Below, piece after piece: positions 45,196 through 61,802 of a DNA stretch of 64,000 nucleotides. The notes under the pieces are model-generated. The model worked only from the letters and a program-made list of their open reading frames with translations, did not search any database and was not told where the DNA came from. The stretch lies in NCBI RefSeq assembly GCF_010119195.1, contig NZ_WRXL01000007.1, positions 124,001 to 188,000 on the forward strand. Direction: 5' to 3'. Made by a program: the position numbers and the translations under genes. Each line of letters begins with the position of its first letter. Position 1 is the first letter of the stretch. The stretch comes from Haloarcula salina. GTDB taxonomy: Archaea; Halobacteriota; Halobacteria; Halobacteriales; Haloarculaceae.

Positions 45196-45498
45196 TCACA
45201 CCATCCGATACACTTCGTCCATCCAGCTGTCGTCCGATTCGAGCGTGATTCCGGCCATCTCCTCGGCCCACTCGGCCTGTGCCTCGCTCCCTTCCATGAC
45301 CTCCTGAATCACGTCGGGGTCCTCGACCTCCATGAACCCGAAGACGTGGCCGTCCTTCTCGAAGACGCTGTAGGTCTCCAGCCCGGCGTCCGATTCGAGG
45401 TACGCCGCTTCGAGGGCGTCGGGGACGTTCTCGTGTTTCGCTCGGTACGCGTCTCGCTTCCCGTCCGCGATCTCCAGGTGGAACGCTATTCGCGCCAT
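45196..45498 (-). CDS. rhaM: L-rhamnose mutarotase, 100 aa
   Basis: Interconverts the anomers of L-rhamnose so that the pathway enzyme can use the sugar. The family (dimeric alpha/beta ferredoxin-like fold) is recognised from MARIAFHLEIADGKRDAYRA, KHENVPDALEAAYLES, ETYSVFEKDGHVFGFMEVED and WMDEVYRMV; length 100 aa is close to the ~104 aa norm. Tyr and His residues in the active-site positions (KHENV, YSVF) are retained. Divergent from glycerate kinase. It marks the start of the deoxy-sugar island and is the best clue that the sugar is L-rhamnose. Confidence 0.85.
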   Translation of the reverse strand: MARIAFHLEIADGKRDAYRAKHENVPDALEAAYLESDAGLETYSVFEKDGHVFGFMEVEDPDVIQEVMEGSEAQAEWAEEMAGITLESDDSWMDEVYRMV

Positions 45499-45606
45499 AC
45501 CGGCGGTTCGCTTGCCGGCGACAAATAGGTTGGGCGGGGCGTTCCCAGCCCCGTCGAGGCGCCGGAGCGAAGGCAGATTTTTACCGACCGGCGCGGAAGC
45601 ACGCGT

Positions 45607-46932
45607 ATGATCCGCAATCGCGACGCACTCGAGACGGACGATTCTCACCGGGTGGCCCTCGACTGCATCGAGGCGGCCATCGCGGCGGCCGCGCCGGAGA
45701 CCGCGACGGAATCAGCAGTCGCCCTCGACGGCGAGACGCTCACGGTCGGACCGACGAGCTACGACCTCGGCGAGTACGACGAGGTCGTCATCGTCGGCGG
45801 CGGAAAGGCCGGCGGCGGTGTGACCCGCGCGCTCGAAACGATTCTCGGTGATCGCCTCTCGGGCGGGCGACTCGTCGTCAAACAGCCCGTCGACGTGTCG
45901 GCCGTCGAGTGGTCGGTCGGCGATCACCCGCTGCCGTCCGAGCGGAACGTCCAGGCCACGGCCGAACTGCTCGAACTCGTCGACGAGGCCGACGACGACA
46001 CGCTCGTCCTGTTCGTCCTGACTGGCGGGGCCAGCGCGCTCCTGTCGGCGCCGACGGGCGACCTGACCATCGACGACCTGCAGGCGACGACCGACCGCCT
46101 GCTCGGCGGCGGCGTTCCGATCGAGGAGATCAACGCCGTCCGCAAACACCTCTCGGAGCTGAAGGGCGGGCAACTCGCGCGGCGGGCGGCCCCCGCGACC
46201 GTCGTCGGGCTTCTCGTCAGCGACGTGGTGGGTGACGACTTCTCGACTATCGGAAGCGGCCCCTCGGTCCCGGACGAGACGACGTACGCGGACGCGCTCG
46301 CGGTGTTCGACCGTCACGGCGTCTCGCCGCCGGAGGCCGTCCGCGAGCACCTCGAAGCGGGACGTGACGGCCAGGTCGCGGAGACGCCGTTCCCCGACGA
46401 TCCGGTCTTCGACCGCGTCCAGAACCACCTCGTCGGCGACAACGGCACCGCGCTTGACGCCGCCGCGGACGTGGCGCGCGCGGCCGACCACGACCCCCTC
46501 GTCCTCACGTCTCGCCTGCGCGGCGAGGCGCGCGAAGTCGCAAAACCGCTGGTCGCAGTCGCCGAGGAGGCGACGGTGACGGGGTCGCCGGTCGAACCGC
46601 CGGCGGTCCTGCTCGCGGGCGGCGAGACCACCGTTACCATCACCGGTGACGGCGGACAGGGCGGCCCGAATCAGGAGCTCGTCCTCTCGGGCGCGCTGGA
46701 CCACGACGGTGACGCGATCGTCGCCGCGGTCGACACCGACGGCGAGGACGGGAGCTCCGACGTGGCAGGCGCAATCGCCGACGCGGACGCGATAGCGGAC
46801 CGCGAACGGGCCCGCGAGGCGCTGCTGGCCAACGATGCGGGGTCGTATCTCTCGGAGATCGGCGCGACGATCGAGACCGGGCCGACCGGGACGAACGTCA
46901 ACGACGTGGTCGTCATCGTCGTCCCGGCGTAG
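45607..46932 (+). CDS. Glycerate 2-kinase (MOFRL/DUF4147 family), 441 aa
   Basis: Phosphorylates D-glycerate to 2-phosphoglycerate in archaeal sugar pathways. The N-terminal DUF4147 domain has VVIVGGGKAGGGVTRALETI and FVLTGGASALLSAP with INAVRKHLSELKGGQLARRA. The C-terminal MOFRL domain has LLAGGETTVTITGDGGQGGP followed by NQELVLS, and AVDTDGEDGSSDVAGA. Length is normal. Glycerate is not an intermediate of the diketo-hydrolase rhamnose route, so this gene may serve other sugars that share the island. Confidence 0.9.
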   Translation: MIRNRDALETDDSHRVALDCIEAAIAAAAPETATESAVALDGETLTVGPTSYDLGEYDEVVIVGGGKAGGGVTRALETILGDRLSGGRLVVKQPVDVSAVEWSVGDHPLPSERNVQATAELLELVDEADDDTLVLFVLTGGASALLSAPTGDLTIDDLQATTDRLLGGGVPIEEINAVRKHLSELKGGQLARRAAPATVVGLLVSDVVGDDFSTIGSGPSVPDETTYADALAVFDRHGVSPPEAVREHLEAGRDGQVAETPFPDDPVFDRVQNHLVGDNGTALDAAADVARAADHDPLVLTSRLRGEAREVAKPLVAVAEEATVTGSPVEPPAVLLAGGETTVTITGDGGQGGPNQELVLSGALDHDGDAIVAAVDTDGEDGSSDVAGAIADADAIADRERAREALLANDAGSYLSEIGATIETGPTGTNVNDVVVIVVPA

Positions 46933-46962: not shown

Positions 46963-47814
46963 TCAGTTCCCGACGACGTGGTTCGTGAGCGTGCCGATGC
47001 CCTCGATCTCCGCCTCCGTCGTCTGGCCGGGCTCCAGCACGTCGACGGGGTCGCGGAAGATGCCGACGCCGCCGGGCGTCCCGGTGGAGATGACGTCGCC
47101 GGGCCGGAGCGTCATCGACTGGCTGATGTAGGAGACCAGTTCGCCCACGTCGAAGATGAACTGCTCCGTGTTCGATTCCTGTTTCGTCTCGCCGTCGACG
47201 CGCAGTGCGACGTCGACGTTGTTGGGGTCGAACGCCTCGTCGGCGACGAGCGTCGGCCCCATCGGCGCGAACGTGTCGTAGCTCTTGCCCCGGAAGAACT
47301 GCCCGTCGGACTGCTGGGCGGTCCGGCCGCTCACGTCGTTGACGACCGTGTAGCCGGCGACGTGGTCGTACGCGTCGGACTCGGAGACGCCCTTGGCACG
47401 CTCGCCGATGACGACGCCGAGTTCCACCTCGTAGTCGACCTGTTCCTCGCCGTCGGGATCCGGGTGGACGATGGGGTCGCCGGGATTGGTGACGGCCGTC
47501 GCGGCCTTGCCGAACAGCATCGGCCGCTCGGGGATTTCCTCGTCCTGTTCCTCGGCGTGGTCCCGGTAGTTGAGTCCGCAGCAGACGATCTTTCCGGGTC
47601 GCGGGACCGGAGCCAGCAGCGATACCTCGTCCGCGTCGACCTGCGTCAGCGCGTCGTGCTCGACGAGTCGCGCGACTTCCGACCGGTAGCTCGCGTCGCC
47701 GATGTCGGCGAGGGCGGGTTCGCCCTGCGGGAGGTCCGACAGCGCGTGGATCGTATCCGTTTCCTTCACGCCCCACGAAGGGCCTGTTCCGTCGGTGTAC
47801 CGAACGAATTGCAT
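46963..47814 (-). CDS. Fumarylacetoacetate hydrolase-family enzyme, likely 2,4-diketo-3-deoxy-L-rhamnonate hydrolase, 283 aa
   Basis: An FAH-fold C-C bond hydrolase. The metal ligands appear as the E-x-E pattern in YEVELGVVIGERAKG with Asp in YTVVNDVSGR; the fold ends PGDVISTGTPGGVGIFRDPV. In the diketo-hydrolase pathway such an enzyme splits 2,4-diketo-3-deoxy-L-rhamnonate into pyruvate and L-lactate. The L-rhamnonate dehydratase, mutarotase and lactate-oxidation genes nearby support that role over aromatic degradation, but sequence alone gives only the FAH family. ATG at 47814, with TATA-like ACTTAAAGC at 47839-47847. Divergent from the IclR gene. Confidence 0.85.
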   Translation of the reverse strand: MQFVRYTDGTGPSWGVKETDTIHALSDLPQGEPALADIGDASYRSEVARLVEHDALTQVDADEVSLLAPVPRPGKIVCCGLNYRDHAEEQDEEIPERPMLFGKAATAVTNPGDPIVHPDPDGEEQVDYEVELGVVIGERAKGVSESDAYDHVAGYTVVNDVSGRTAQQSDGQFFRGKSYDTFAPMGPTLVADEAFDPNNVDVALRVDGETKQESNTEQFIFDVGELVSYISQSMTLRPGDVISTGTPGGVGIFRDPVDVLEPGQTTEAEIEGIGTLTNHVVGN

Positions 47815-48158
47815 CGCTAGGCTAACCACGCCATCGGAACTTAAAGCTTGAGATGGAGACCGGCGATCGGTCCCAGTCGCGACAGACCGTCGTCCCCACT
47901 CCGTGCTGACGCGGCACGCAGTCCAGCGGCGGTCCGACCCCGCGTTCCGACATGCTCGGATCGACTCCGTCCCGTTCCCGAGAGCGAACCGGTCGGGAGC
48001 GCGTCACTCTTCGAGAACCACTTGTACGACTGTTTGTACAGGATCGATAGTGGACAGTGGCCGCAGATTCGCGCTGTGAGCCGTCTGTCGACGCACTGAT
48101 CGAGATAGAATCCGGCAATGGCGGAAATAATATATGGGCACGCGTCCGATATCGTTCC
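47815..48158. other. Divergent promoter region between FAH hydrolase and IclR genes
   Basis: 344 bp with a leftward TATA-like ACTTAAAGC (47839-47847) and a rightward AAATAATATAT (48125-48135). TGTAC (48023-48027) and GTACA (48036-48040) form a weak inverted pair. No gene recognised. The natural place for the IclR protein to act. Confidence 0.45.
48125..48135 (+). promoter_or_regulatory. TATA element of the sugar-island IclR gene
   Basis: AAATAATATAT, 24-34 nt upstream of the ATG at 48159, which supports that start and a leaderless mRNA. Confidence 0.55.
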
Positions 48159-48920
48159 ATGGACGAACGCACCGTGCCGATCAAGGCCGCGAAAGTCTCC
48201 TTCGACGTCATCGAGGCGTTGCGCGAGCGCGAGGGAGCCGGGGTCTCCGAACTCGCGACCGCGCTGGAGATGCCGACGAGCACCATCCACGACCACCTCC
48301 GAACGCTGGAACAGCAAGGCTACCTCGTCAAGGAAGACGGGGAGTACCGCGTCGGCGCGCGCTTTCTCGAACTGGGGGAGCAGGCCCGGTCGCGCAAGAA
48401 GGTGTACGGCATCGCCCGCCCCGAGGTCGACTCGCTGGCCGAGGAGACCGGCGAGCACGCGAACCTCCTCATCGAGGAGCACGGCCTCGGCGTGTTCCTC
48501 TACAAGGCCCGCGGCGAGGACGCGGTCAATCTCGATACCCACGCCGGGATGCGCGTGCTGTTACAGACGACGGCGCTCGGCAAGACGATCCTCGCCTACC
48601 GGCCGCGCGAGGAGGTCGAGGCGATACTCGACGAACACGGCCTCCCGGAGATCACGGCGAACACCGTCACCGACCGGGACGAACTGCTCGACGAACTGGA
48701 GACGATTCGAGAGCGCGGATACGCCCTCGACGACGAGGAACGGGTCCAGGGAATGCGCTGTGTGGCCGCGCCGATCCTCAGCGACGACCAGGAGGCCATC
48801 GCCGCGGTGAGCGTCTCCGGGCCGCGGAGTCGGATGGCCGGCGACCGCTACACCGAGGAGATTCCCGAACTCGTTCTCCGAAGCGCCAACGTCATCGAGG
48901 TCAACATGACGTACTCCTAG
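48159..48920 (+). CDS. IclR-family regulator of the deoxy-sugar island, 253 aa
   Basis: Winged helix (~5-65: IKAAKVSFDVIEALREREGA, VSELATALEMPTSTIHDHLR, TLEQQGYLVKEDGEYRVG) plus effector domain (~80-250: HANLLIEEHGLGVFLYKARG, LLQTTALGKTILAYRPREE, YALDDEERVQGMRCVAAPIL). It is paralogous to the IclR at 32197-33003 but distinct in sequence. Placed between the hydrolase gene and the dehydratase operon, it is the obvious candidate to control the pathway. Convergent with the LLM oxidoreductase gene. Confidence 0.9.
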   Translation: MDERTVPIKAAKVSFDVIEALREREGAGVSELATALEMPTSTIHDHLRTLEQQGYLVKEDGEYRVGARFLELGEQARSRKKVYGIARPEVDSLAEETGEHANLLIEEHGLGVFLYKARGEDAVNLDTHAGMRVLLQTTALGKTILAYRPREEVEAILDEHGLPEITANTVTDRDELLDELETIRERGYALDDEERVQGMRCVAAPILSDDQEAIAAVSVSGPRSRMAGDRYTEEIPELVLRSANVIEVNMTYS

Positions 48921-48956: not shown

Positions 48957-49988
48957 CTACCGGAACTCCGGCATGACCTCGTCGGCGAACAGCTCCATCC
49001 CGCCGGTGTCGGGGAAGTCGACGAACCAGCACTGGAACTTCGTGACGCCCGCCTCGATCCGGTCTTCGATGGCCGCGGCGCACTCCTCGGGCGTCCCCAT
49101 GATGAAGTACTCGCGGGCGTCTTCGGCCGTCTCGATGTCCGCCTGGTCCTGGTACTCCTCCTCGAACTGAATGGGCGTCATCAGGTCGACGAGCCGGTCG
49201 AACTTCTGTTCGTCGCGCGTGCAGATGACGTGCCCGTCCCACGAGTACTCGATGTCGTCGGGGTCGCGGCCGACCGTCTCGCAGTGGTCCTCGATGACGC
49301 CGATCTTGTGTTCCAGCGTGTCCACGTCGCCGTTGAACACGTCCGTGTTCCACACGTCAGCGTGCTTCGCGACGAGCTTGAGCGTGACCTGCTCGCCCTG
49401 GCCGCCGACGAGTATCGGCGGGTGGGGGTCCTGTACGGGCGTCGGTGCGCAGGAGGCGTCCTCGATCTGGTAGTGGTCGCCGTCGAAGCTCGCGCCCTCG
49501 CTGCCGGCGTCCCACATGCGCTTTATCAGGCGGATGGACTCGTCGAGGCGCATCAGCCGCTCGAAGCCGTCGCGGTACTCCCAGCCGTAGGCGTCGTACT
49601 CCGGTTCGTGCCAGCCCGCGCCGAGGCCGAGTTCGAGTCGTCCGTCGGAGATCACGTCGAGCGTCGCAGCCATCTTCGCGACCAGCGCGGGGTTGCGGTA
49701 GTCGTTACAGAGGACGAGCGAGCCGAGGTTGATGTCCTCCGTGAACCCGGCCATCGCCGAGAGGAGCGTCCAGCACTCGTACTCCGCGTGGTCGCGGCCG
49801 AGCATCAGATGGTCCGGGGCCCACGCGGCGTCGAAGCCCAACTCCTCCGCTTTCTCGATACCCATCCGCGTCGTCTCCCAGTCGAGCGCCTCGTACTCGG
49901 GCGTGTCCCGGTGGACCGGTTCGCCACCCGTTTCCTCCGGCGCGCCCGCGAACACCGGCACGTTGTACTCGAAGCTGATGTCCGTCAT
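48957..49988 (-). CDS. LLM-class (F420-dependent type) oxidoreductase, 343 aa
   Basis: A TIM-barrel luciferase-like protein of the branch that mostly uses coenzyme F420: MGIEKAEELGFDAAWAPDHL (first helix), INLGSLVLCNDYRNPALVAK, GRLELGLGAGWHEPEYDAYG (family signature), PPILVGGQGEQVTLKLVAKH and YFIMGTPEECAAAIEDRIEA. Members include F420-dependent glucose-6-phosphate dehydrogenase. It starts 3 bp after the L-rhamnonate dehydratase stop, so the two are co-transcribed. No short-chain rhamnose dehydrogenase is in the window, and this enzyme could oxidise the aldose (inference). Cofactor choice cannot be proven by eye. Confidence 0.85.
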   Translation of the reverse strand: MTDISFEYNVPVFAGAPEETGGEPVHRDTPEYEALDWETTRMGIEKAEELGFDAAWAPDHLMLGRDHAEYECWTLLSAMAGFTEDINLGSLVLCNDYRNPALVAKMAATLDVISDGRLELGLGAGWHEPEYDAYGWEYRDGFERLMRLDESIRLIKRMWDAGSEGASFDGDHYQIEDASCAPTPVQDPHPPILVGGQGEQVTLKLVAKHADVWNTDVFNGDVDTLEHKIGVIEDHCETVGRDPDDIEYSWDGHVICTRDEQKFDRLVDLMTPIQFEEEYQDQADIETAEDAREYFIMGTPEECAAAIEDRIEAGVTKFQCWFVDFPDTGGMELFADEVMPEFR

Positions 49989-49991
49989 CGG

Positions 49992-51197
49992 TCACTCCAC
50001 GGCGAAGTGGTCGAGCGCCTCGCGGTTCAGTTCCGTGCTGACACCGGGCTCGTCGGGCAGCGGTATCGAGCCGTTCTCCGGCGACGGCGGGTTCTGGAAG
50101 ATGGCGTCGGCGTAGGTCGACTCCTTTTCCTCTTGCTGTTCCTGGAACCACTCGGGGGTCGGGAAGTACTCGGCCATCGGCATGTTCGTGTGCCCCGCGA
50201 TCGCGTGCAATGTGGGGTTCGTTCCGGCGTGAGGGATCACCGGTACGTCGTGGACCTCCGCCATGTCCGCGACCTTCTGGAGCTCCGTGATCCCGCCGAC
50301 GCGGCCCACGTCGGGCTGGAGGATGTCGACGGCTTCGCGTTCGAGCAGTTCCTCGTGGCCCCAGCGCGTGAACTCGTGTTCGCCGCCGGAGATCGGCATC
50401 GGCGCGGCCTCCCGGACCTCGGCGTAGCCCCTGATGTCGTCGGCGATGACCGGCTCCTCGACCCACGCCATGTCGTACTTCGCGAGGCGCTGGGTCATCT
50501 CCTTGGCGTACTTCACCGACCAGCCCATGTAGGCGTCGCCCGCGATGTCGATCTCGTGGCCGACGGCCTCCCGGACTGTCCTGACGATCTCCTCGTTTTT
50601 CTCCATCCCCGAGCGCCCGTCCTCGGGCCCGTGGAGGAAGCGCAGTTTCATCGCGTCGAAGCCCGCCTCGGCGTACTCGAGGGCCTCGCGCTCCAGTTTC
50701 TCCATGTCGACGGGGTGGAGGTTCGACGCGTAGGCCGGGATCTCGCCCTTCGTGGGGCCGCCGAGCAGTTCGTACACCGGCTTGCCGGCCTCCTTGCCGG
50801 CGATGTCCCACAGCGCCTGATCGACGGCGCTGATCGCCATGACGGCGACGCCCTTCCGGCCGAACGGGAGCGTCGCGCGGTACATCTGTTCCCAGAGGTG
50901 CTCGCGTCGCATCGGGTCCTCGCCGTGCACGATCTTCGAGAGCGTCTCCTCGACGACGGTGGCGATGGCGCCCGTGCCCCAGTTGCCGACGCCGACGCCG
51001 GTGATGCCCGCGTCGGTCTCGACCTCGACGACCACGTCGCCGACCGGCCCCATCCACTTCCGGCGGGCCTGCGGGTTCTCGCCGTCGACGTTGCGGTACT
51101 CGTCGTACTTCGACATGATCGTCACGAGGGGGAACTCGATGAACTCGCCCCACGACTCGTTGCTGACTTTCGTCGCTGAAATGTCTGTGATCTCCAT
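49992..51197 (-). CDS. L-rhamnonate dehydratase, 401 aa
   Basis: An enolase-superfamily enzyme (mandelate racemase subgroup) that dehydrates L-rhamnonate to 2-keto-3-deoxy-L-rhamnonate. The N-terminal capping domain has FPLVTIMSKYDEYR, which parallels the characterised RhmD cap. Metal ligands fit Asp221 (AGDAYMGW), Glu247 (AWVEEPV) and the Glu of SGGEHEF (~273). The His-Asp dyad fits His323 (VIPHAG) and Asp296 (LQPDVGRVGGIT). The C-terminus GVSTELNREAL also matches RhmD. Length 401 aa is within a few residues of bacterial RhmD. An alternative aldonate (e.g. fuconate) is less likely given the mutarotase. Confidence 0.87.
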   Translation of the reverse strand: MEITDISATKVSNESWGEFIEFPLVTIMSKYDEYRNVDGENPQARRKWMGPVGDVVVEVETDAGITGVGVGNWGTGAIATVVEETLSKIVHGEDPMRREHLWEQMYRATLPFGRKGVAVMAISAVDQALWDIAGKEAGKPVYELLGGPTKGEIPAYASNLHPVDMEKLEREALEYAEAGFDAMKLRFLHGPEDGRSGMEKNEEIVRTVREAVGHEIDIAGDAYMGWSVKYAKEMTQRLAKYDMAWVEEPVIADDIRGYAEVREAAPMPISGGEHEFTRWGHEELLEREAVDILQPDVGRVGGITELQKVADMAEVHDVPVIPHAGTNPTLHAIAGHTNMPMAEYFPTPEWFQEQQEEKESTYADAIFQNPPSPENGSIPLPDEPGVSTELNREALDHFAVE

Positions 51198-51325: not shown

Positions 51326-52360
51326 TCAGTCGCCGAACTGGAACACCGGTTTGCAGGTCTCTGAGCCCAGGAACGCCTCGAAGGCGGCCGACGGGTCGTC
51401 GACCGAGTAGGACGTGTCCAAGATCTCGTCGACCGCGATCGCGCCGCGCTCCATCAGCCGGAGCGCCTGCTCGAAGTTCGTCCACGTCGAGCCGTAGGAG
51501 GTGTTGATCTCGATCTCGCCGCGCACGACCGGCGTCAGCGTGACCTCGCTGGGCTGGTTCGGGATGCCGACGACGACGACCTGTCCGCCCTTGCGGACGT
51601 GCTCCGCGGCCGTGCCGACGCCGGTGTGGTGGCCCGTCGAGTCGATGGCCACGTCGAAGCCGATGCCGTCGGTGAACGACTCCGTCGCGGCCTCGAGGCC
51701 GTCGCCCGACTGGACGTTGACCGTCTCGATGCCGAGGTCGTCGAGCAGCGGCAGGCGGTACGCGGCGTCCTGGTCGAGGCCCGAGACGAGGACGTTCGCG
51801 CCAAGCGAGTCCGCGACGGCGGCGACGAGGACGCCGATAGGGCCCGGCCCCTCGACGAGGACGGTGTCGCCCGGCGTCGCGTTCGACCGGTCGAGGACGG
51901 CCCGCGTGGCGATGCTCGTCGGCTCGGTGATGGCCGCGTGGCGCAGCGGGACCTCGTCGGGGACGGCGTGGACGTGCTCCGGCGCGACGGTCACGTACTC
52001 AGCGTACGCGCCGTCGCGGTGCATCCCCGTGATCGAGAAGTTCTGGCAGACGTTCGGCTGGCCGTTCTTGCACTGGAAGCAGTGACCGCAGTCGTGGATC
52101 GGCTCCTCGACGACCTTGTCGCCTTCCGCGAAGCCCTCCACGTCGGACCCGACCTCGACGACCTCGGCCGAGTACTCGTGGCCCATGATCCGCGGAATCG
52201 GGATCCACTCGTAGCCGCCGTCGTACTTGTAGGCGTGGGCGTCGCTCCCGCAGAGCCCGGCCGTGTGGACTTTCACGAGCAATTCGTCTGCGTCTGGCGT
52301 GGGGACCTCCCGCTCCTGTGTCTCCACGGCGCGGGGGCCCGTCTGAACGATTGCTTTCAT
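51326..52360 (-). CDS. Zinc-dependent alcohol/polyol dehydrogenase (MDR), likely keto-deoxy-rhamnonate dehydrogenase, 344 aa
   Basis: A medium-chain dehydrogenase. Catalytic zinc site: Cys in AGLCGSDAH and GHEYSAEV. Structural zinc loop: CGHCFQCKNGQPNVC. NAD(P) domain: VLVEGPGPIGVLVAAVADSL with the Asp of SGLDQDA at the end of the second strand, favouring NAD. Similar to L-threonine/polyol dehydrogenases. In the diketo-hydrolase pathway the 4-hydroxyl of 2-keto-3-deoxy-L-rhamnonate must be oxidised, and this enzyme, between dehydratase and importer genes, is the natural candidate; that is inference. Upstream AT box TTAATAATTTT at 52416-52426. Confidence 0.87.
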   Translation of the reverse strand: MKAIVQTGPRAVETQEREVPTPDADELLVKVHTAGLCGSDAHAYKYDGGYEWIPIPRIMGHEYSAEVVEVGSDVEGFAEGDKVVEEPIHDCGHCFQCKNGQPNVCQNFSITGMHRDGAYAEYVTVAPEHVHAVPDEVPLRHAAITEPTSIATRAVLDRSNATPGDTVLVEGPGPIGVLVAAVADSLGANVLVSGLDQDAAYRLPLLDDLGIETVNVQSGDGLEAATESFTDGIGFDVAIDSTGHHTGVGTAAEHVRKGGQVVVVGIPNQPSEVTLTPVVRGEIEINTSYGSTWTNFEQALRLMERGAIAVDEILDTSYSVDDPSAAFEAFLGSETCKPVFQFGD

Positions 52361-52527: not shown

Positions 52528-53691
52528 TCAGACCTCGACGCCGTTTGTCGGTGCGTCCTCGGCGCGTTCCGCCATGAGCCGGCCCTTGATGAGTTCCTCC
52601 GTCTCGGCGTCGAACAGGTAGACGTGCTCCGGCGCGATGGTGAACGTCAGCGAGTCGCCGGCCGCCAGGTCGTGGAAGCCGCCGATCTTGGCGGTGATGT
52701 CGCCGCTCTCGCTCTCTGCGTGGACGATCGCCTCCGTCCCGACGGGCTCGACGACGCGGACCTCGGCGTCCACGTCCGGGCCCTCCGTCAGCCGCGCCGC
52801 CCGCTGGTAGAGGTCCTGTGGCCGGAACCCGACGAGCACGTCGGACGTGTCGATCTCGGTCTCGACGAGCGCCTTCGGAATCTCGAAGCTCGTGTCGTCC
52901 GTCTCGATGGCGTAGTCGTCGCCGCTGTCCGTGACGCGCCCCGAGTAGAGGTTCATGTCGGGGCTGCCGACGAACTGCGCGACGAAGAGGTTCGCGGGCT
53001 CGTTGAACACCTGGTCCGGCGTGCCCAGTTGCTGGAGTTTGCCGTCGTTGAGGATGGCAATGGTGTCGGCGATGGTCATCGCCTCCTCCTGGTTGTGGGT
53101 CACGTACGCCGAGGTGATGCCGACCTGGGACTGCAGTTCGTCGATCTCGGTCCGCATCGTCTTCCGTAGCTGGGCGTCCAAGTTCGCCAGCGGCTCGTCG
53201 AACAGGAACAGTCGCGGCTCGCGGATGATGGCGCGACCGAGCGCGACCCGCTGTTGCTGGCCGCCCGAGAGCTGTGCGGGCTTGTTGTTCAGGAGCTCCT
53301 CGATTTCGAGCATCTCCGCGACCTCGGTGACGCGCTGGTCGATCTCCCCGTCGGTCATGTCGTTGTCCTCGCGTCGGAGCCCGAAGCCGAGGTTCTCCCG
53401 GACGGTCATGTGCGGATAGAGGGCGAAGTCCTGGAACACCATCGCCACGTCGCGGTTGCGCGCCTTGATGTCGTTGACGACGGTCCCGTCGAAGCGAATC
53501 TCGCCCTCGGTGGGGTCTTCGAGCCCGCCGATCATGCGGAGCGTCGTCGTCTTCCCACAGCCGCTCGGGCCGAGCAGGACCAGGAAGTCCCCGTCGGGCA
53601 CGTCGATCGAGAGGTCGTTCACGGCGACCACGCCGTCTTTCTCGGGGTCACCGAATACCTTCGTGACACCGTCGACTTCTAGGTGTGTCAT
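52528..53691 (-). CDS. Sugar ABC transporter ATPase (MalK/UgpC type), 387 aa
   Basis: Powers carbohydrate import by the permeases encoded just upstream. Walker A GPSGCGKTTTLR, Q-loop MVFQDFALYPHMTV, signature LSGGQQQRVALGRAII, Walker B LFLFDEPLANLDAQ, switch His in YVTHNQEEAM. The C-terminal ~130 residues form the OB/TOBE regulatory domain (VGFRPQDLYQRAARLTEGPD). It has its own TATA box (53714-53723), although it follows the permease genes by only 60 bp. Confidence 0.92.
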   Translation of the reverse strand: MTHLEVDGVTKVFGDPEKDGVVAVNDLSIDVPDGDFLVLLGPSGCGKTTTLRMIGGLEDPTEGEIRFDGTVVNDIKARNRDVAMVFQDFALYPHMTVRENLGFGLRREDNDMTDGEIDQRVTEVAEMLEIEELLNNKPAQLSGGQQQRVALGRAIIREPRLFLFDEPLANLDAQLRKTMRTEIDELQSQVGITSAYVTHNQEEAMTIADTIAILNDGKLQQLGTPDQVFNEPANLFVAQFVGSPDMNLYSGRVTDSGDDYAIETDDTSFEIPKALVETEIDTSDVLVGFRPQDLYQRAARLTEGPDVDAEVRVVEPVGTEAIVHAESESGDITAKIGGFHDLAAGDSLTFTIAPEHVYLFDAETEELIKGRLMAERAEDAPTNGVEV

Positions 53692-53751: not shown

Positions 53752-54717
53752 CTATCCCTTGACGGCGCCGCCGGTGAGGCCCTGCACGAAGTACTGCTGG
53801 ATGTACGCCAGTCCGGCCAGGACCGGCAGCGAGATGATGATCGACGCCGCCGCGACGACGTTCCACTGCGTGTTGAACCCCTGCACGAAGGTCAGAAGTC
53901 CGGGGGGAACGGTGAACTTCGAGTTGTCGAGCAGCGTCAGCGCGAAGACGAGTTCGTTCCACGCCAGCAGGAACGCGAAGATGAACGACGCGATGAGCGA
54001 GTTCCGCGCCATCGGCACCAGCACGTACCAGAACGTCTCGAAGGGCGTACACTGGTCGATGCGCGAGGCCTCGACGATGGAGTCGGGGAAGTCGTCGAAG
54101 AAGCCCTTCATGAGCCAGACCACGAACGGCGAGGTCATCGCGCCGTAGATGAGGATCAGCGCGAGGTGGGTGTTGAACAGCCCCAGCGTCGAGATGAGTT
54201 CCCACTCGGGGACCATGATGGCCGTCCCGGGGAACATCAGCGACGCGAGCAGGAGGCTCATGATGGCGTTCTTCCCGCGGAACTCCCGCTGGGAGAGGAC
54301 GTACGCCGCCCCCGTCCCGAGGACGAGCGCGATGAGTCCGGCTCCGACCGCGACCTTCAGGCTGTTGAGGATGAGCGTCAGGATGTCGATGTCGATGGCC
54401 GAGGAGATCTCCCAGCCGAACGACTGCTCGAAGAACGCGTCGTAGCCGCTCGTCTGGAGCGACGACATGACGACCATCCGGAACCCCTGCAGCGAGGGGT
54501 CTTCCGGGAAGACCGTCGGCGGGATCTGCTGGATCTCGGCCGTCGTCTTGAACGCCGTCACGACCATCCAGTACAGCGGGAACAGGACGTACGTGAAGAC
54601 GACGAGCGTCAGCAGGCCGATGAGCGACTTGCGGACGTACGTCCCCGACTGCGTGTCGTACAGCCACGACTGGTTCTTGCGGAACTCCGATTTCGGGTCT
54701 TGGGTGTCTGTCGCCAT
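53752..54717 (-). CDS. Sugar ABC transporter permease (MalG type), 321 aa
   Basis: A membrane subunit with six helices. The first (~35-55, LIGLLTLVVFTYVLFPLYWM) is followed by a ~70-residue external loop. The EAA coupling loop is IVEASRIDQCTPFETFWYVL followed by VPMARNSL, placing it in the carbohydrate uptake CUT1 family. It overlaps the stop of the MalF-type gene by one base (TAATG) and pairs with it. Confidence 0.9.
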   Translation of the reverse strand: MATDTQDPKSEFRKNQSWLYDTQSGTYVRKSLIGLLTLVVFTYVLFPLYWMVVTAFKTTAEIQQIPPTVFPEDPSLQGFRMVVMSSLQTSGYDAFFEQSFGWEISSAIDIDILTLILNSLKVAVGAGLIALVLGTGAAYVLSQREFRGKNAIMSLLLASLMFPGTAIMVPEWELISTLGLFNTHLALILIYGAMTSPFVVWLMKGFFDDFPDSIVEASRIDQCTPFETFWYVLVPMARNSLIASFIFAFLLAWNELVFALTLLDNSKFTVPPGLLTFVQGFNTQWNVVAAASIIISLPVLAGLAYIQQYFVQGLTGGAVKG

Positions 54718-55643
54718 TAGAACTCACCTTGCACTTTGTCGTACACCTGGATGTAGTAGTAGGAGAACACGAGCAGGACGACGAACAGCAGCATCGACAG
54801 CGCCGACGCGAGGCCGACGTTGAAGTCGACGAACGCCGTCCGGTAGATCATCACCGGGAGCGTGCTGCTGGAGACGCCGGGACCGCCCTTCGTCATCACC
54901 CACACCATCGAGAAGTTCCTGATGTTGTAGATGAGCATCAGGAGGAAGCCGATGGCGAGGTTGTACCGCATCATCGGGAGCGTGATGTACCGGAACTGCT
55001 CCCACGGGGTCGCGCCGTCCATCCGCGCGGCCTCGTAGAGGTGCTCGTCGATGCCCTGCAGCGATGTCAGCGTCAGGAGCGCGAACAGGGGCGCGAGCCG
55101 CCAGATCATCCCGACGATGGGCGGCCACAGCGAGAGGTCGGTCGACCCGAGCATGACGATGTACTCGTCGATGACGCCCAGTTGCACCAGCAGTTCGTTG
55201 ATGATGCCCTGTGAGCCGCCGAACATGAACTGCCAGATGGACGCCCCGACGACCCGCGGGAGGACCCACGGGATGAGGACGATGGCGCTGGCCACGCTCG
55301 TGAACGGGAGCTTCTCGTAGAGGAGCCACCCCATGAGGAAGCCGAGCACGATGGCCGCGATGCTCCCGACGGCCACCCAGACGAACGTGTTCCAGAGCAC
55401 TTGGTGGATGGTCTCGCTCGTCCAGATCTCGGCGTAGTTCGCGAGGCCGACGAACTCCGCCTCCGCCGGCGAGAGGAGGTCCTTGTCGAAGAAACTGGAG
55501 TAGATCGCCTGCGCGATGGGATAGAGGATGAACACGCCGACGAGCGACATCACCGGGAGTATCGGGAGGTACACCCGGACCCCTTCGGGAACCCGCTCGA
55601 TCGCGTGTTCGTACGACGCCTGTGCGTTGTCTACGTAACTCAT
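54717..55643 (-). CDS. Sugar ABC transporter permease (MalF type), 308 aa
   Basis: A membrane subunit with six helices, the first at ~28-50 (LPVMSLVGVFILYPIAQAIY) and the CUT1 EAA loop LYEAARMDGATPWEQFRYIT followed by LPMMRYN. It is 50 bp downstream of the binding-protein gene and continuous with the MalG-type gene. Together they form the pore of the importer. Confidence 0.9.
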   Translation of the reverse strand: MSYVDNAQASYEHAIERVPEGVRVYLPILPVMSLVGVFILYPIAQAIYSSFFDKDLLSPAEAEFVGLANYAEIWTSETIHQVLWNTFVWVAVGSIAAIVLGFLMGWLLYEKLPFTSVASAIVLIPWVLPRVVGASIWQFMFGGSQGIINELLVQLGVIDEYIVMLGSTDLSLWPPIVGMIWRLAPLFALLTLTSLQGIDEHLYEAARMDGATPWEQFRYITLPMMRYNLAIGFLLMLIYNIRNFSMVWVMTKGGPGVSSSTLPVMIYRTAFVDFNVGLASALSMLLFVVLLVFSYYYIQVYDKVQGEF

Positions 55644-55693: not shown

Positions 55694-57151
55694 TCAGGCG
55701 AGGTTCTCGTCGATGGCTTCCTGGACGGCGGAGTTCGCGCTGGCGCAGGCCTCCTCGGCGGTCGCGTTGCCCAGCACGACCGGCTGGATGACTTCGGTGT
55801 TGATCGTGCTCTGGATGGAGGCGAGCCCGGCGAACGACGGGAACCGCGAGGTGCGGGTGAAGAGGTCGTCGTTCTCGTACAGCGTGACGAGGTCGCCGAA
55901 CTGGCTCTGGAAGAGGTCGGTCGGCTCCTCGAAGGCGCTCTGGAGCGTCGGGACGCGGCCGCGGATGCCCACGTCGGCCTCCGAGGCGTACGTCCACGGG
56001 GCGAGCTGGTCGGGCTGGTTCCACCACTCGATGTAATCGAAGGCGGCGGATCGTTCGGCGTCGTTCGCCGTGCCGTTGCCCATCATGAAGCCCTGCGCGT
56101 TCTGGAGCAGGAGGTCCCGGGGCTCGAAGCTCCCGGACGGGTTCTCCGGGAGCGGCGCGCGCGTGACGGTGTGGCCCTCGCCGTCGAGCCACGGCTGGGG
56201 CGCGCCCGTGGTCTGGTACACCGCGTTCGCGTGGGAGTACGTGATGAAGATACCCGACTCGCCCTCGCGGAGGAGCCGACCCGCAGCGATGTGGTTGTTC
56301 TCGGCCATGGAGTCCGGGAACAGCCCCGCCTCCGCGATGTCCTGGTACAGCTTGACGGCGTCGACGAAGCCGGGCTGGTCGACCGTCGCCTCCATCGACT
56401 CGGGGTCGAAGTACCGGCCCCCGTTCGCGTAGACGAATCCGATGAAGTAGCCCGTCGTCAGGCCGAAGTCGGTTCCGGGAGCCGTGATGGCCGCCGAGAC
56501 CTCGTCGATCTCCTGCATCTCCTCGCCCAGTTGGATGAGCTCGGGCCAGGACCGCGGCGGCGCGTCGAAGCTGGTCTGTTCGAGGTAGTCCGTCCGGATG
56601 TCGATGAACGGCCCGAGGTCGGCGTAGCCGCCCGGGAGTCCCCACTGGTGCTCGCCGTCGGTGTCGCCGAGCCCAGAGTATAGCTGAGTCTGGATGTTGG
56701 CGTCGATGAAGTGGCTGTTGATCTCCTCCAGGCGGTCCGCGAACTGGCTCTGGTCGAGGGGCTGAATCGCGCCGGCCCCGGCGTAGTCGGGGATCTGCTG
56801 GCACTGTCCGGCCATCACGTCGGGGAGGTTGTTGTTCGCGGCCGCCGAGGCGATGATCTGGTACTTCTGGCCCCACTCCTGGTGCTGGTAACTGACGTTG
56901 TGCTCGCCGTATTCGGAGTAGTGCCCGCTGATGTACTCCCGTTCGGCGGGAATGCCGCCGAACAGCCAGAAGTCGAGGTTCTGCGAGCCGCCGCCGTTGC
57001 CGCCGTTGCCACCGCCACCATCGCCACCGTCACCACCGCCGTCTCCGCCGTCACCACCGCTGCACCCGGCGAGTCCCAGGGCGGCCGCAGTACCGACTCC
57101 AGTCAGAAAGCGACGCCTGTCGAGTCCGGACGACGTACTATCGTGTGTCAT
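55694..57151 (-). CDS. Sugar ABC transporter substrate-binding lipoprotein, 485 aa
   Basis: An extracytoplasmic SBP family 1 protein. Tat lipoprotein signal: LDRRRFLTGVG and lipobox LGLAGC (Cys near residue 30), then a Gly/Asp-rich linker (~31-55). The ligand domain follows (LDFWLFGGIPAEREYISGHY, PDVMAGQCQQIPDYAGAGAI, RSWPELIQLGEEMQEI, GESGIFITYSHANAVYQTTG). The ligand is probably the deoxy sugar or an oligomer of it. The ATG at 57151 lies 27 nt from a very strong TATA box. First gene of the importer operon. Confidence 0.9.
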   Translation of the reverse strand: MTHDSTSSGLDRRRFLTGVGTAAALGLAGCSGGDGGDGGGDGGDGGGGNGGNGGGSQNLDFWLFGGIPAEREYISGHYSEYGEHNVSYQHQEWGQKYQIIASAAANNNLPDVMAGQCQQIPDYAGAGAIQPLDQSQFADRLEEINSHFIDANIQTQLYSGLGDTDGEHQWGLPGGYADLGPFIDIRTDYLEQTSFDAPPRSWPELIQLGEEMQEIDEVSAAITAPGTDFGLTTGYFIGFVYANGGRYFDPESMEATVDQPGFVDAVKLYQDIAEAGLFPDSMAENNHIAAGRLLREGESGIFITYSHANAVYQTTGAPQPWLDGEGHTVTRAPLPENPSGSFEPRDLLLQNAQGFMMGNGTANDAERSAAFDYIEWWNQPDQLAPWTYASEADVGIRGRVPTLQSAFEEPTDLFQSQFGDLVTLYENDDLFTRTSRFPSFAGLASIQSTINTEVIQPVVLGNATAEEACASANSAVQEAIDENLA

Positions 57152-57177
57152 GAGACGCTGTTTCAAACGACGCGGCG

Positions 57178-57384: not shown

Positions 57385-57909
57385 ATGTCAGGAGCCACAT
57401 TCTCGTCGTTCGAGCGGTCACTCGGCGAACTGGACGTGCCGGCGACGCGGATCAAGCGAGAGGAGTTCACGAATCAGGTCGAGGAGGCAGTCGAACCGCC
57501 GGCCGTCGGCGTCCCCCTCGGGGAGACGTTCGACGAGCCGGCGCTGTCGCTCGACGGGACGCCGGTCACCGTGGACCCGACCCCGGTCGCGCTCCGCGAG
57601 GCGACGACGGGCGTCACGGGGGCGCGACTCGGAATCGGGGACTACGGCACGCTCGCCCTGTCGCTGACCGACCGCGCGAGCGAGCTTGTGAGCCTGTTCG
57701 TCGAGCACCACGTCGCCGTCGTCCGGGAACGCGACCTCGTCGACGAGATGCGGACCGGAATCGAGACGCTCGGCGAGGAGTTCGCCGAGACGCGCGGGAG
57801 CGCGATTCTTGCCACCGGTCCCAGCGCGACGGCCGACATGGGCGCGCTGGTGAAGGGCGCACACGGGCCACGAACGGTCGAGGTGCTCGTGCTGACGGAG
57901 GACGACTGA
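57385..57909 (+). CDS. lutC: LutC-like lactate utilisation protein (LUD domain), 174 aa
   Basis: A subunit of the LutABC-type iron-sulfur L-lactate dehydrogenase system. The LUD domain shows TGVTGARLGIGDYGTLALSL, VVRERDLVDEM and the C-terminal signature ATGPSATADMGALVKGAHGP. Relatives make L-lactate to pyruvate oxidation possible in bacteria that lack the flavin enzyme. It starts 2 bp before the LutB/A fusion gene, so both are co-translated. Placed in a pathway that releases L-lactate, it is probably there to use that product. Confidence 0.85.
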   Translation: MSGATFSSFERSLGELDVPATRIKREEFTNQVEEAVEPPAVGVPLGETFDEPALSLDGTPVTVDPTPVALREATTGVTGARLGIGDYGTLALSLTDRASELVSLFVEHHVAVVRERDLVDEMRTGIETLGEEFAETRGSAILATGPSATADMGALVKGAHGPRTVEVLVLTEDD

Positions 57910-57911
57910 CG

Positions 57912-60092
57912 ATGGCGAAAGCCGACGAGATCCGCGAGCTGATGCGAACGGAGGGCGCGGCGGTCGCCGAGAACACGCGGGCGTTCAACGACGGCCGGTA
58001 CGAGTCGGTCGCCGACCTGGAGGACTACGAGGCGCTCAAATCGGAGGCCCGGGCCATCAAGGAGGACGCCATCGAGCGGCTCCCGGAACTCATCGACGAA
58101 CTGGAGGTCGCCGTCGAGGAGAACGGCGGAACGGTGTACATTGCGGACGACGCGGCCGACGCGAACGCGTACGTCCGCGAGGTCGTCGCGGACCGCGACG
58201 CCGACCGCGTGGTCAAGAGCAAGTCGATGACGAGCGAGGAGATCGAGGTCAACGAGGCGCTCGAATCGGACGGCGTCGACGTTGTCGAGACGGACCTCGG
58301 CGAGTGGGTCCTGCAGGTCGCCGACGAAGCGCCCTCCCACATCGTCGCGCCGGCGATTCACAAGTCTCGCGAGGCCATCGCCGACCTGTTCAACGAGCGC
58401 TTCGACCCCGACGAGCCGCTGGAGACCGCCGAGGAACTCACGTACTTCGCCCGCGAGAAACTGGGCGAGCAGATCGTCGACGCCGAGGTGGGACTGACCG
58501 GCGCGAACTTCCTGACCGCCGACACCGGGACGATGGCGCTCGTGACGAGCGAGGGCAACGCCAGAAAGACCGTCGCGGCGACGGACACGCAGATCACCGT
58601 CGCCGGCGTCGAGAAGGTGGTCCCGAGCGTCGAGGAGCTCGCGCCGTTCGTCGAACTCATCGGGCGCTCGGGGACCGGCCAGGACATCACCTCCTACGTC
58701 TCGCTGCTGACGCCCCCGGTCGAGACGCCGGTCGTCGACTTCGACGACGACGAGACGCCGCTCTCGGCGTTCGACGCGGACCGCGACTTCCATCTCGTCC
58801 TCATCGACAACGGTCGGCTGGCGATGCGCGAAGACGACCAGCTCCGGGAGACGCTGTACTGCATCCGCTGTTCCGCCTGTTCGAACTCGTGTGCGAACTT
58901 CCAGCACGTCGGCGGCCACGCCTTCGGCGGCGAGACGTACTCCGGCGGCATCGCCACCGGCTGGGAGGCCGGCATCGAGGGCCTCGACACGGCCGCGGAG
59001 TTCAACGACCTCTGTACCGGCTGTACCCGCTGTGTGAACGCCTGCCCGGTCGAAATCGACATCCCGTGGATCAACACCGTCGTCCGCGACCGCATCAACC
59101 GCGAGGGCGAGCGGCCGGCCGAGTGGCTCGTCGACGGGCTGACGCCGGACGCCGAGGACGAGGGCGCGCCGCTCCAGAAGCGCTTCTTCGGCAACTTCGA
59201 GACGGTCGCGAAACTCGGGAGCGCGACCGCCCCGCTCTCGAACTGGCTGGCCGGTACGGGGCCGTCCCGGTGGCTCATGTCGCGCGCCCTCGGCATCGAC
59301 CGCCGGCGAGCCCTCCCAGAGTTCGAGCGCGAGACGCTCGTCGACTGGTTCGCTGACCGGGACTCGACGGTCGAAACCCCCGAGCGACGGGCCGTCCTCT
59401 ATCCGGACCTCTACACGAACCACGTCCAGGTCGAGCGCGGGAAGGCGGCCGTCGAGGCCCTCGAAGCGCTGGGCGTCGAGGTCGTCGTGCCCGAGGTCCC
59501 GTCGAGCGGCCGCGCGCCGCTCTCGCAGGGGATGGTCGCCACGGCCACGGACCACGCTGAGCGCGTCACCGAGGCGCTCGCGCCCTACGTCGCCGACGGC
59601 TACGACGTGGTCGTCGTCGAGCCCAGCGACCTCGCGATGTTCACACGAGAGTACGACCGCCTCGTCGCCGAGGATACCTTCGAGACGCTCGCGGAGAACA
59701 GCTACGAGGTGCTGGAGTACGTCTACGGTCTACTGGAGAACGGGGCCGACGCCGACGCGCTCGCGTCGAGCGATGGGGCCGGCGTCGCCTACCACAGCCA
59801 CTGTCAGCAGCGCACGCTCGGACTCGAGGCCCACACCGTCGCCGTCCTCGAAGATCGCGGCTTCGACGTGGTCACCTCCGACGTGGAGTGCTGCGGGATG
59901 GCCGGGAGCTTCGGCTACAAGCGCGACTACTACGAACTCAGCATGGACGTGGGCGGGCGGCTCCGCGACCAGTTCGAGGCCGACGGCGTGCGCGACCGTC
60001 CCGTCGTCGCCAGCGGCACGTCCTGTCTCGAACAGATCGACGCCCTGCTGGAGCGACAGCCTCGCCACCCGGTCGAACTGCTGGTCGAGTGA
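57912..60092 (+). CDS. LutB/LutA-type fused iron-sulfur L-lactate oxidation protein, 726 aa
   Basis: An N-terminal LUD domain (~1-290, as in LutB) is followed by two [4Fe-4S] ferredoxin motifs, CIRCSACSNSC (~317-327) and CTGCTRCVNAC (~367-377). A C-terminal heterodisulfide-reductase-like half (~480-720, as in LutA/GlpC) follows. It retains one CCG-type motif, YHSHCQQRT and VECCGMAGSFGYKRD (~658). The first CCG repeat has no Cys: it reads YPDLYTNHVQVERGKAAVEA and VPSSGRAPLSQG. A fused form is common in haloarchaea. It likely passes electrons from L-lactate to the membrane quinone or another carrier. Overall role is family knowledge plus context. Confidence 0.87.
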   Translation: MAKADEIRELMRTEGAAVAENTRAFNDGRYESVADLEDYEALKSEARAIKEDAIERLPELIDELEVAVEENGGTVYIADDAADANAYVREVVADRDADRVVKSKSMTSEEIEVNEALESDGVDVVETDLGEWVLQVADEAPSHIVAPAIHKSREAIADLFNERFDPDEPLETAEELTYFAREKLGEQIVDAEVGLTGANFLTADTGTMALVTSEGNARKTVAATDTQITVAGVEKVVPSVEELAPFVELIGRSGTGQDITSYVSLLTPPVETPVVDFDDDETPLSAFDADRDFHLVLIDNGRLAMREDDQLRETLYCIRCSACSNSCANFQHVGGHAFGGETYSGGIATGWEAGIEGLDTAAEFNDLCTGCTRCVNACPVEIDIPWINTVVRDRINREGERPAEWLVDGLTPDAEDEGAPLQKRFFGNFETVAKLGSATAPLSNWLAGTGPSRWLMSRALGIDRRRALPEFERETLVDWFADRDSTVETPERRAVLYPDLYTNHVQVERGKAAVEALEALGVEVVVPEVPSSGRAPLSQGMVATATDHAERVTEALAPYVADGYDVVVVEPSDLAMFTREYDRLVAEDTFETLAENSYEVLEYVYGLLENGADADALASSDGAGVAYHSHCQQRTLGLEAHTVAVLEDRGFDVVTSDVECCGMAGSFGYKRDYYELSMDVGGRLRDQFEADGVRDRPVVASGTSCLEQIDALLERQPRHPVELLVE

Positions 60093-60098
60093 CCCCCC

Positions 60099-60968
60099 TC
60101 AGTCGAGTCCCACGTGCCGCCGGAACGCCCGCTCCGTGATCCATTCCCTGTCTTCCGCGGTCACGCCGTCGACTTGCCGCAGCCAGTTGCACGCTTCGGC
60201 GTAGCTGGCCACGTCGCTGACGTTCGGGTAGTCAGAGCCCCAGACGACGCGCTCCCGGCCGAAGGTGTCGAGGAACCACCGCACGTGGTCGTGCATGTCC
60301 GCGTACGGGAACGCCGACTCGGACACGTGGGGGACTTCCGAGACCTTCACCGCGACGCCGCCGTAGTCGGCGAGGTCGGCGAACCGGGCGAACGAGCCTT
60401 GATCGGTCGGCGTCGTCGGCCCCGCGTGCGCGAAGTGGTCGAACAGGTAGTCGAGTTCGGGGTACGTCTCGACGAGGTCGAGCGCCTGGTCGAGCTGGCC
60501 GTGGTCACAGAGGATCTGGACGGCGGCGTCCGTCTCGACCGCGACCTCCCAGAAATCGGTCTCCTCGATGGCGTCCCGGAGCCACGTGACGCTCGGGTCG
60601 AAGGTCTCCCACATCCGGTCGTACGGGCAGGCGGCCCCCAGGCGAAAGCCGAGGACGCCGTCGGTGTCCATGCAGCGTCGGAGCCGTGTCGCGGCGTCGT
60701 CGGCGAACGGGTCGAGCATCACGATTCCGTGGAGTCGGTCGTACGACTCGGCCACCTCACGGGTGTACCAGTTGTCCGTCCAGTCGCAGATCGGGTAGCC
60801 GACGACGACGGCCTCGTCGATCCCGTTACGGTCCATGTCGGCGAGGAGTCGCTCGGCGGTGTAGACGGTGTGGACGGAGAACGAGTCGACGAGGTCCACG
60901 AGCGGGCCGTTGACCCACGGGTGGTCGTCGGTCGGGGCCGCCCACGCGTGCGTGTGCGTGTCGAGCAT
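60099..60968 (-). CDS. Amidohydrolase-2 family protein, candidate L-rhamnono-lactonase, 289 aa
   Basis: A TIM-barrel metal hydrolase. The N-terminal HxH is in LDTHTHAWAAP (residues ~5-7). Further ligands are His in ILCDHGQ and FDHFAHAG, and Asp in VVWGSDYPNV near the C-terminus. This COG3618-like branch includes sugar-lactone and pyrone hydrolases, and some L-rhamnono-lactonases belong to it. Its place at the right edge of the island fits a lactonase step between sugar oxidation and rhamnonate; this is inference. The ATG at 60968 is used, with an AT box GATTTAGTA ~24-32 nt upstream on the minus strand. Confidence 0.82.
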   Translation of the reverse strand: MLDTHTHAWAAPTDDHPWVNGPLVDLVDSFSVHTVYTAERLLADMDRNGIDEAVVVGYPICDWTDNWYTREVAESYDRLHGIVMLDPFADDAATRLRRCMDTDGVLGFRLGAACPYDRMWETFDPSVTWLRDAIEETDFWEVAVETDAAVQILCDHGQLDQALDLVETYPELDYLFDHFAHAGPTTPTDQGSFARFADLADYGGVAVKVSEVPHVSESAFPYADMHDHVRWFLDTFGRERVVWGSDYPNVSDVASYAEACNWLRQVDGVTAEDREWITERAFRRHVGLD

Positions 60969-61181
60969 GTCAGTGTCGACTCCCGGGTCGCTACTAAATC
61001 TTCCCCGCACGCGGCGACACGGACTGTCGGTATCGGCCCGGATCACGCAGGGCAACCGATCCGGTATCGTCGGACCGGATCTGTGGCTACCGACAGTGAT
61101 CCGTGCCCGTGAGCCGCTGACGAGGGGGAAATCGGCAATCCACGCCCTGTTTTGGGAGTAACTGTAACGGGAGGGGCCCGA

Positions 61182-61214
61182 AGCACGTGCGCCAACGAAT
61201 AAACGACACGTGCT
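61182..61214. repeat. 8-bp inverted repeat AGCACGTG...CACGTGCT
   Basis: Perfect arms with a 17-nt spacer; each arm contains the palindrome CACGTG. Distance to either flanking gene (about 215 and 645 bp) gives no clear function. Confidence 0.4.
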
Positions 61215-61802
61215 AGCGAGACTGGCGTCCGACATCGCCGGATAGACGGGGAAACACTCACTTGCACTCGGCCGTACTGCCAGAGATAATATTTGTACAG
61301 TTGTTATTCCAATCGTATCGCGCCTGTAAGGCCACATCGAGACGGACCGCGTGCGGGTTGTCGAGCGTCGACACCGGTACGGAAGTCGCCGAAGTATACG
61401 ATATTATCGGACACGAACCGAGTTCGGTGCGTCCGGCCGGGTTCGCGTCGGTCCTGTCGATCTGCCTCCGCATCGGGACGGGGGGTGCCATCACCGATCT
61501 CACTTCGAGGGCGATAGCCACGGTAACCGACACTAAAGAAACTCGATATCGAGTTACTATCTTACCTTTTATCTCCCGCCCATCCAATATCTTCGGATAT
61601 ACATAAGTATATGAGAATACCAGATCGAAAATCCCATATCTGTGAGTTAGTTATGCAGATATCGGTCCAGAATGGATTTGTAGCGAGTCAATAGGTGACT
61701 GATGGTGATATCTGTACCCATATCCGTCACGAATAGGGTTCAGACCCCCTCTTGGGCGGCTACCGTCGCGACTTCGAGCCATGGAGGCGGGCTCGCACGG
61801 TG

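Follow-up and report, generated by a model that had tools for sequence, protein, structure and literature searches.

A luciferase-like oxidoreductase of probable F420 dependence is a conserved partner of the rhcD dehydratase in haloarchaeal L-rhamnose operons

The haloarchaeal L-rhamnose pathway, known as the rhc or diketo-hydrolase pathway, was described in Haloferax volcanii by Reinhardt et al. 2019, as far as that work is related in PMC8305020 and PMC11519228, and H. volcanii grows less well on rhamnose once LudBC has been deleted (PMC8305020). The use of the cofactor F420 in these organisms is much less defined: a 2021 survey of haloarchaeal annotation counted only one F420-dependent reaction reported for halophilic archaea and called the role of the cofactor enigmatic (PMC8305020). 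Three described systems come close to the luciferase-like (LLM) oxidoreductase studied here, namely the sugar-linked FGD and FSD enzymes (PMC5352752, PMC6279831), the Rv1855c-type proteins of TIGR03560 and the FMN-dependent LLM monooxygenases (SfnG, MsuD/SsuD, 3rao).

The DNA analysed, here called the window, is a stretch of 64,000 nt from Haloarcula salina (GCF_010119195.1, NZ_WRXL01000007.1, forward strand 124,001-188,000; C12:124001-188000 in our numbering). As in the described rhc cluster, rhcC-rhcF share an island with a CUT1 transporter, LUD genes for lactate oxidation and an IclR regulator (Table 1), the orthologs of rhcC, rhcD, rhcE and rhcF lying all together. The mutarotase, lactonase, dehydratase, alcohol dehydrogenase and hydrolase listed by a first-pass annotation of the sequence were all recovered, as rhaM, Amidohydro_2, MR_MLE, MDR and FAA hydrolase genes, respectively. 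The dehydratase was assigned to MR_MLE by profile search and is 94-95% identical to proteins of close relatives that PGAP names rhcD, L-rhamnonate dehydratase. Its stop codon (TGA, 49992-49994, minus strand) is followed by three bases (49989-49991) and then by the LLM start, in agreement with the 3-bp spacing claimed earlier. The LUD genes fit the lactate branch because of the rhamnose phenotype of the LudBC deletion in H. volcanii (PMC8305020). The MOFRL-type gene is probably a bystander; the diketo-hydrolase pathway does not require it.

Table 1. Features of the rhc island in the window (positions counted from the first base of the window)
Feature	Position	Strand	Basis or remark
RhaM-like L-rhamnose mutarotase	45196..45648	-	domain from residue 53; start probably internal
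MOFRL glycerate 2-kinase-like gene, between rhaM and FAH	45607..46932	+	
rhcF-type FAA hydrolase (2,4-diketo-3-deoxy-L-rhamnonate hydrolase; FAH)	46963..47811	-	
IclR-family regulator, RhcR-like, convergent with LLM	48111..48920	+	
LLM (luciferase-like, TIGR03560) oxidoreductase, 343 aa, ATG start	48957..49988	-	ORF, profile, predicted structure
rhcD-type L-rhamnonate dehydratase, enolase superfamily	49992..51197	-	profile MR_MLE; identity to rhcD proteins
MDR alcohol dehydrogenase, rhcE ortholog	51326..52357	-	ortholog in 45/46 rhcD genomes
CUT1 sugar ABC transporter ATPase, RhcJ-like position	52528..53691	-	profile and relatives' annotation
Sugar ABC transporter permease 2	53752..54717	-	ORF and comparison of loci
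Sugar ABC transporter permease 1	54717..55643	-	ORF and comparison of loci
ABC transporter solute-binding protein	55694..57166	-	ORF start TTG; ATG 15 bases inside
LUD-domain protein (LutC/LudC-like), lactate oxidation	57385..57909	+	
LUD and 4Fe-4S protein (LutB/LudB-like), lactate oxidation	57912..60092	+	
rhcC-type Amidohydro_2 L-rhamnonolactonase	60099..61337	-	start probably internal; sister protein 289 aa

The locus differs from the described cluster in that the H. salina genome has no ortholog of the SDR found in other rhc clusters, and in that the LLM carries no rhc name in the relatives' annotation examined. PGAP gives the names rhcC-rhcF to the neighbours and none to the LLM, a hint that the L-rhamnose dehydrogenase already characterised is a different protein. 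Since the known pathway has an enzyme at each step, the LLM fills no gap in it. The pathway and the protein family are already known; what appears new is the LLM as a fixed component of the rhc operon, of which the literature searched, a body outside which Reinhardt et al. 2019 lies, gave no description.

Orthologs were scanned in 392 Halobacteriales genomes. An rhcD ortholog was present in 46 of them (72-96% identity, the window's own copy aside) and a close LLM ortholog (at least 80% identity) in 47; the one LLM genome in which no rhcD ortholog was found is 66% complete. In all 46 rhcD genomes the LLM gene lies directly downstream of rhcD on the same strand, with gaps of 1-24 bp as judged by alignment ends. 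The pairing is far above chance; the genomes share ancestry, so that a formal co-occurrence p overstates the number of independent events, and the 23 genera spanned by the adjacency are the fairer measure. Over 33 loci the LLM was the most conserved of the enzymes compared, with a mean identity of 86% as compared to 83% for RhcD, 77% for the MDR, 73% for the lactonase and 63% for the FAH. It is under strong purifying selection, its dN/dS of 0.04-0.07 being similar to that of RhcD in pairs of four Haloferax loci, each of which also has the SDR. Membership of the LLM in the rhamnose operon, as proposed before, is thus borne out by linkage and dN/dS alike, and the protein very probably has a role in haloarchaeal L-rhamnose breakdown. 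The described rhc pathway would then probably include one more component than those assigned.

RhcD itself falls into two identity groups (at least 87%, and 72-78%), and the adjacent LLM splits differently (locus L051: RhcD 76%, LLM 92%), the pattern expected if one dehydratase gene had replaced another beside an unchanged LLM gene.

The LLM matches PF00296 Bac_luciferase (E 1.4e-54) and passes, marginally, the cut-off of TIGR03560 F420_Rv1855c (236.2 vs 231.4 bits), the sole curated cut-off passed among the models listed. Relatives on public plasmids comprised 49 records at E≤1e-25, and among the matches listed all of these belonged to haloarchaea or Actinomycetota. At E≤1e-8 there were 816 records, with Rhizobium and Pantoea leading, followed by Streptomyces, Sinorhizobium and Burkholderia; in the listed sample, the annotations included SfnG and RutA. 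Outside the haloarchaea, the loci of the genome scan came from Thaumarchaeota/Nitrososphaeria, Chloroflexota/Thermomicrobia and Actinomycetota, and from no others. These lineages are generally known to produce F420. Published work likewise records F420 production in these lineages (PMC8498797). Confinement of the close plasmid relatives listed to haloarchaea and Actinomycetota favours F420 over FMN, and the H. salina genome encodes an F420 ligase, CofE (PF01996, 260 bits, C8:93128), which was the cof gene searched. Judged by the TIGR03560 match, the plasmid relatives and this ligase gene, F420 is probably the cofactor, as the first-pass annotation had assumed. The LLM thus resembles the Rv1855c-type proteins in a score barely over the cut-off and in relatives in Actinomycetota, Chloroflexota and Thaumarchaeota, and differs from them in being fixed in a sugar operon; no characterised sugar-linked member of TIGR03560 was found in the literature searched.

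The structural comparison does not discriminate between the cofactors. The predicted structure (pLDDT 93) is a luciferase-like TIM barrel for which Foldseek listed 3rao, SfnG and MsuD first, followed by Mer, Adf and FGD2 at E-values within about 3-4 orders of magnitude, so that the lead of the FMN enzymes over the F420 enzymes is slight. An FMN-dependent monooxygenase or oxidoreductase of the SfnG/SsuD kind, whose substrate would arrive with rhamnose-rich polysaccharides, would account for these nearest folds, for 3rao as the best PDB match also by sequence, and for the PGAP label of the LLM as flavin-dependent. We regard this alternative as unlikely. Identity to the FMN enzymes is about 20-24%, the equivalog models fail by a wide distance (SfnG 103.5 vs 382.95 bits; SsuD 70.4 vs 518.2 bits) and the taxonomic range is another one: among the matches listed, no close relatives (E≤1e-25) lie on the proteobacterial plasmids that are rich in FMN-type LLMs. 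Moreover, none of the cluster genes was recognised as coding for a flavin reductase.

The first-pass annotation had modelled its proposal on FGD, and this analogy was not supported. The LLM shares with FGD and FSD the TIM barrel, a His at the FGD position, probable use of F420 and a sugar context, but it stays below the cut-offs of both FGD-family models, TIGR03557 (87.7 vs 210.4 bits) and TIGR03554 (60.1 vs 420 bits). The active site of FGD1 we take to consist of His40, Trp44 and Glu109. When the LLM was aligned to FGD2 (9fp4) and to a paralog on contig C14 of the same genome, only the His was kept (His60); the Trp position is occupied by L/G and the Glu position by W126, so that the Trp/Glu pair of the FGD/Adf/FGD2 site is replaced. 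Furthermore, the candidate sugar of the LLM would be unphosphorylated. The paralog on C14 (C14:92157-93059; L002:1360-2409) passes TIGR03557 with 227 bits and keeps the His/Trp/Glu motifs; it is located about 3 kb from an SDR gene, near dehydratase and aldehyde dehydrogenase genes.

The other support for a role of the LLM at C1 was the apparent lack of a sugar dehydrogenase. It had been stated that the window holds no short-chain rhamnose dehydrogenase, and indeed 0 of the 14 adh_short_C2 hits of the genome fall within it. Being the rhcE ortholog, the MDR of the window takes the place of the pathway's second dehydrogenase and is no candidate for the first. An SDR (type 1), which is probably the L-rhamnose dehydrogenase, is present in the rhc clusters of Haloferax, Halorubrum lipolyticum and some Haloarcula, altogether in 17 of the 392 genomes, each of which has rhcD; 29 of the 46 rhcD genomes, H. 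salina included, lack it. In an LLM tree built from 36 of these genomes, the support of which is weak, the SDR switches between presence and absence eight times or more, with the LLM retained throughout; of the two, it is thus the cluster SDR that varies between rhc loci and the LLM that does not. The argument from a missing dehydrogenase gains from the absence of the cluster SDR from these 29 genomes, but it cuts both ways and is weakened by Haloferax and several Haloarcula, which have both SDR and LLM, and by the size of the dehydrogenase repertoire of H. salina, with about 14 SDRs, 14 Gfo/Idh/MocA proteins over the cut-off and other MDRs besides. Where SDR and LLM are both present, one of them does something else or their functions overlap.

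The suggestion to look for a rhamnose SDR elsewhere in the genome led to a divided result. No ortholog of the cluster SDR was found in the H. salina genome, where all SDRs are at most 39% identical to it (the best, 39%), which speaks against an NAD(P)-dependent SDR encoded elsewhere as the enzyme of C1 oxidation. Candidates by sequence do exist, however. The best solved-structure match of the SDR at C13:103205-103927 (L010), which adjoins an MDR gene, is 7b81/7do5/7do6/7do7, entries that we take to represent the L-rhamnose dehydrogenase of A. vinelandii, and this SDR is a possible L-rhamnose dehydrogenase outside the cluster. In addition, Halopiger and genomes G122 and G179 encode a second type of SDR 0.5 kb beyond the LLM; it occurs in 24 of the 29 genomes without type 1 (cut at E≤1e-78), and H. 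salina has a 59% identical relative at C14:96279. Against this, the gene of the type-2 SDR mostly lies away from the cluster, the family of this SDR is large, and the mutual exclusion of the two types (Fisher p 2.5e-5) was not retained after correction for relatedness; as proof of replacement it was consequently dropped. If an SDR of this kind carries out the C1 step, in favour of which the confinement of the type-1 SDR to rhcD-positive genomes also speaks, the LLM would catalyse another redox step on an rhc intermediate, e.g. on KDR or on a lactone or keto acid, and might thereby offer electrons a second path or salvage the intermediate by reduction. We consider this a serious possibility, somewhat short of an even chance.

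Two other assignments were tried and rejected. The Gfo/Idh/MocA gene beside rhaM in Haloferax does not qualify as a universal C1 dehydrogenase, as just 35 of the 46 rhcD genomes have an ortholog, and the LLM is not needed as a KDR dehydrogenase filling an MDR gap, since an rhcE ortholog in 45 of 46 leaves no gap. H. salina itself has, at C10:278467-279561, an 82% ortholog of the Gfo/Idh/MocA gene that Haloferax and Halorubrum carry next to rhaM and a GH88 gene.

Taking linkage, family and cofactor together, we lean towards the LLM being a dedicated component of the rhc pathway that most likely transfers hydride via F420 on a sugar or sugar acid of this pathway. Which step this would be is a separate matter. 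The LLM may convert the free deoxy sugar to its lactone by oxidation at C1. It would then rely on His60, lacking the Trp/Glu pair of FGD, and act either alongside an NAD(P)-dependent SDR or in its place. From the original proposal of F420-linked C1 oxidation, operon membership, probable F420 use and the lack of a cluster-SDR ortholog have stood, whereas the analogy to FGD and the missing-enzyme argument were found to be weak. Of the individual steps, C1 oxidation of the free sugar (L-rhamnose or a related deoxy sugar) thus ranks first, but as a tentative assignment that stays below an even chance; another pathway step, with an SDR acting at C1, is about as likely or likelier. If C1 oxidation proved true, the LLM would be an F420-dependent dehydrogenase whose sugar substrate is unphosphorylated and whose active site is unlike that of FGD, and F420 would have a defined catabolic role in haloarchaea. 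Even apart from this, its fixed place in a rhamnose operon across 23 genera and its probable use of F420 make the LLM a concrete candidate for a role of F420 in these organisms, with about six candidate substrates and a growth phenotype to examine.

The genomic context of related LLMs keeps the C1 reading alive. The next LLMs (44-50% identity) are found, in many although not all genomes examined, in another conserved sugar cluster with a glucose-1-dehydrogenase-like SDR, a RhaM-like mutarotase, an SMP-30 lactonase, a mannonate dehydratase or aldo/keto reductase and a CUT2 transporter. In G166 (Haladaptatus-type) a paralogous LLM is accompanied by FAH, amidohydrolase lactonase, Gfo/Idh/MocA and enolase-type dehydratase genes, and in G028 a 60% relative is located between lactonase and FAH genes. 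Common to these clusters are a mutarotase and/or a lactonase, enzymes of the steps that flank oxidation at C1. Genes of a third group of haloarchaeal LLMs (about 40% identity) lie beside M28/M20 peptidase and SDR genes (L187, L188, L189, L210-L212), and the LLM family overall is therefore no sugar family. This wider distribution is what would favour a mere operon hitchhiker whose function has nothing to do with rhamnose; strict adjacency in 46/46 genomes over 23 genera, together with slow evolution, makes such a hitchhiker very improbable.

Apart from these comparisons, the sugar cluster G166:C26 contains two LLM genes, L206:2782-3786 (-) and L206:6950-7993 (+), together with FAH, lactonase, Gfo/Idh/MocA and dehydratase genes. 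One has the FGD-type motif DHFHPW and the other is of the TIGR03560 kind; the DHFHPW protein would be a better candidate for an FGD-like sugar dehydrogenase. The RhcD-LLM pair on plasmid pHTUR01 of Haloterrigena turkmenica is followed, some 7-12 kb further downstream, by the mycofactocin biosynthesis genes mftA, B2, C, E and F (L185:24502-29307), which places another rare redox cofactor near the rhamnose pathway in this replicon.
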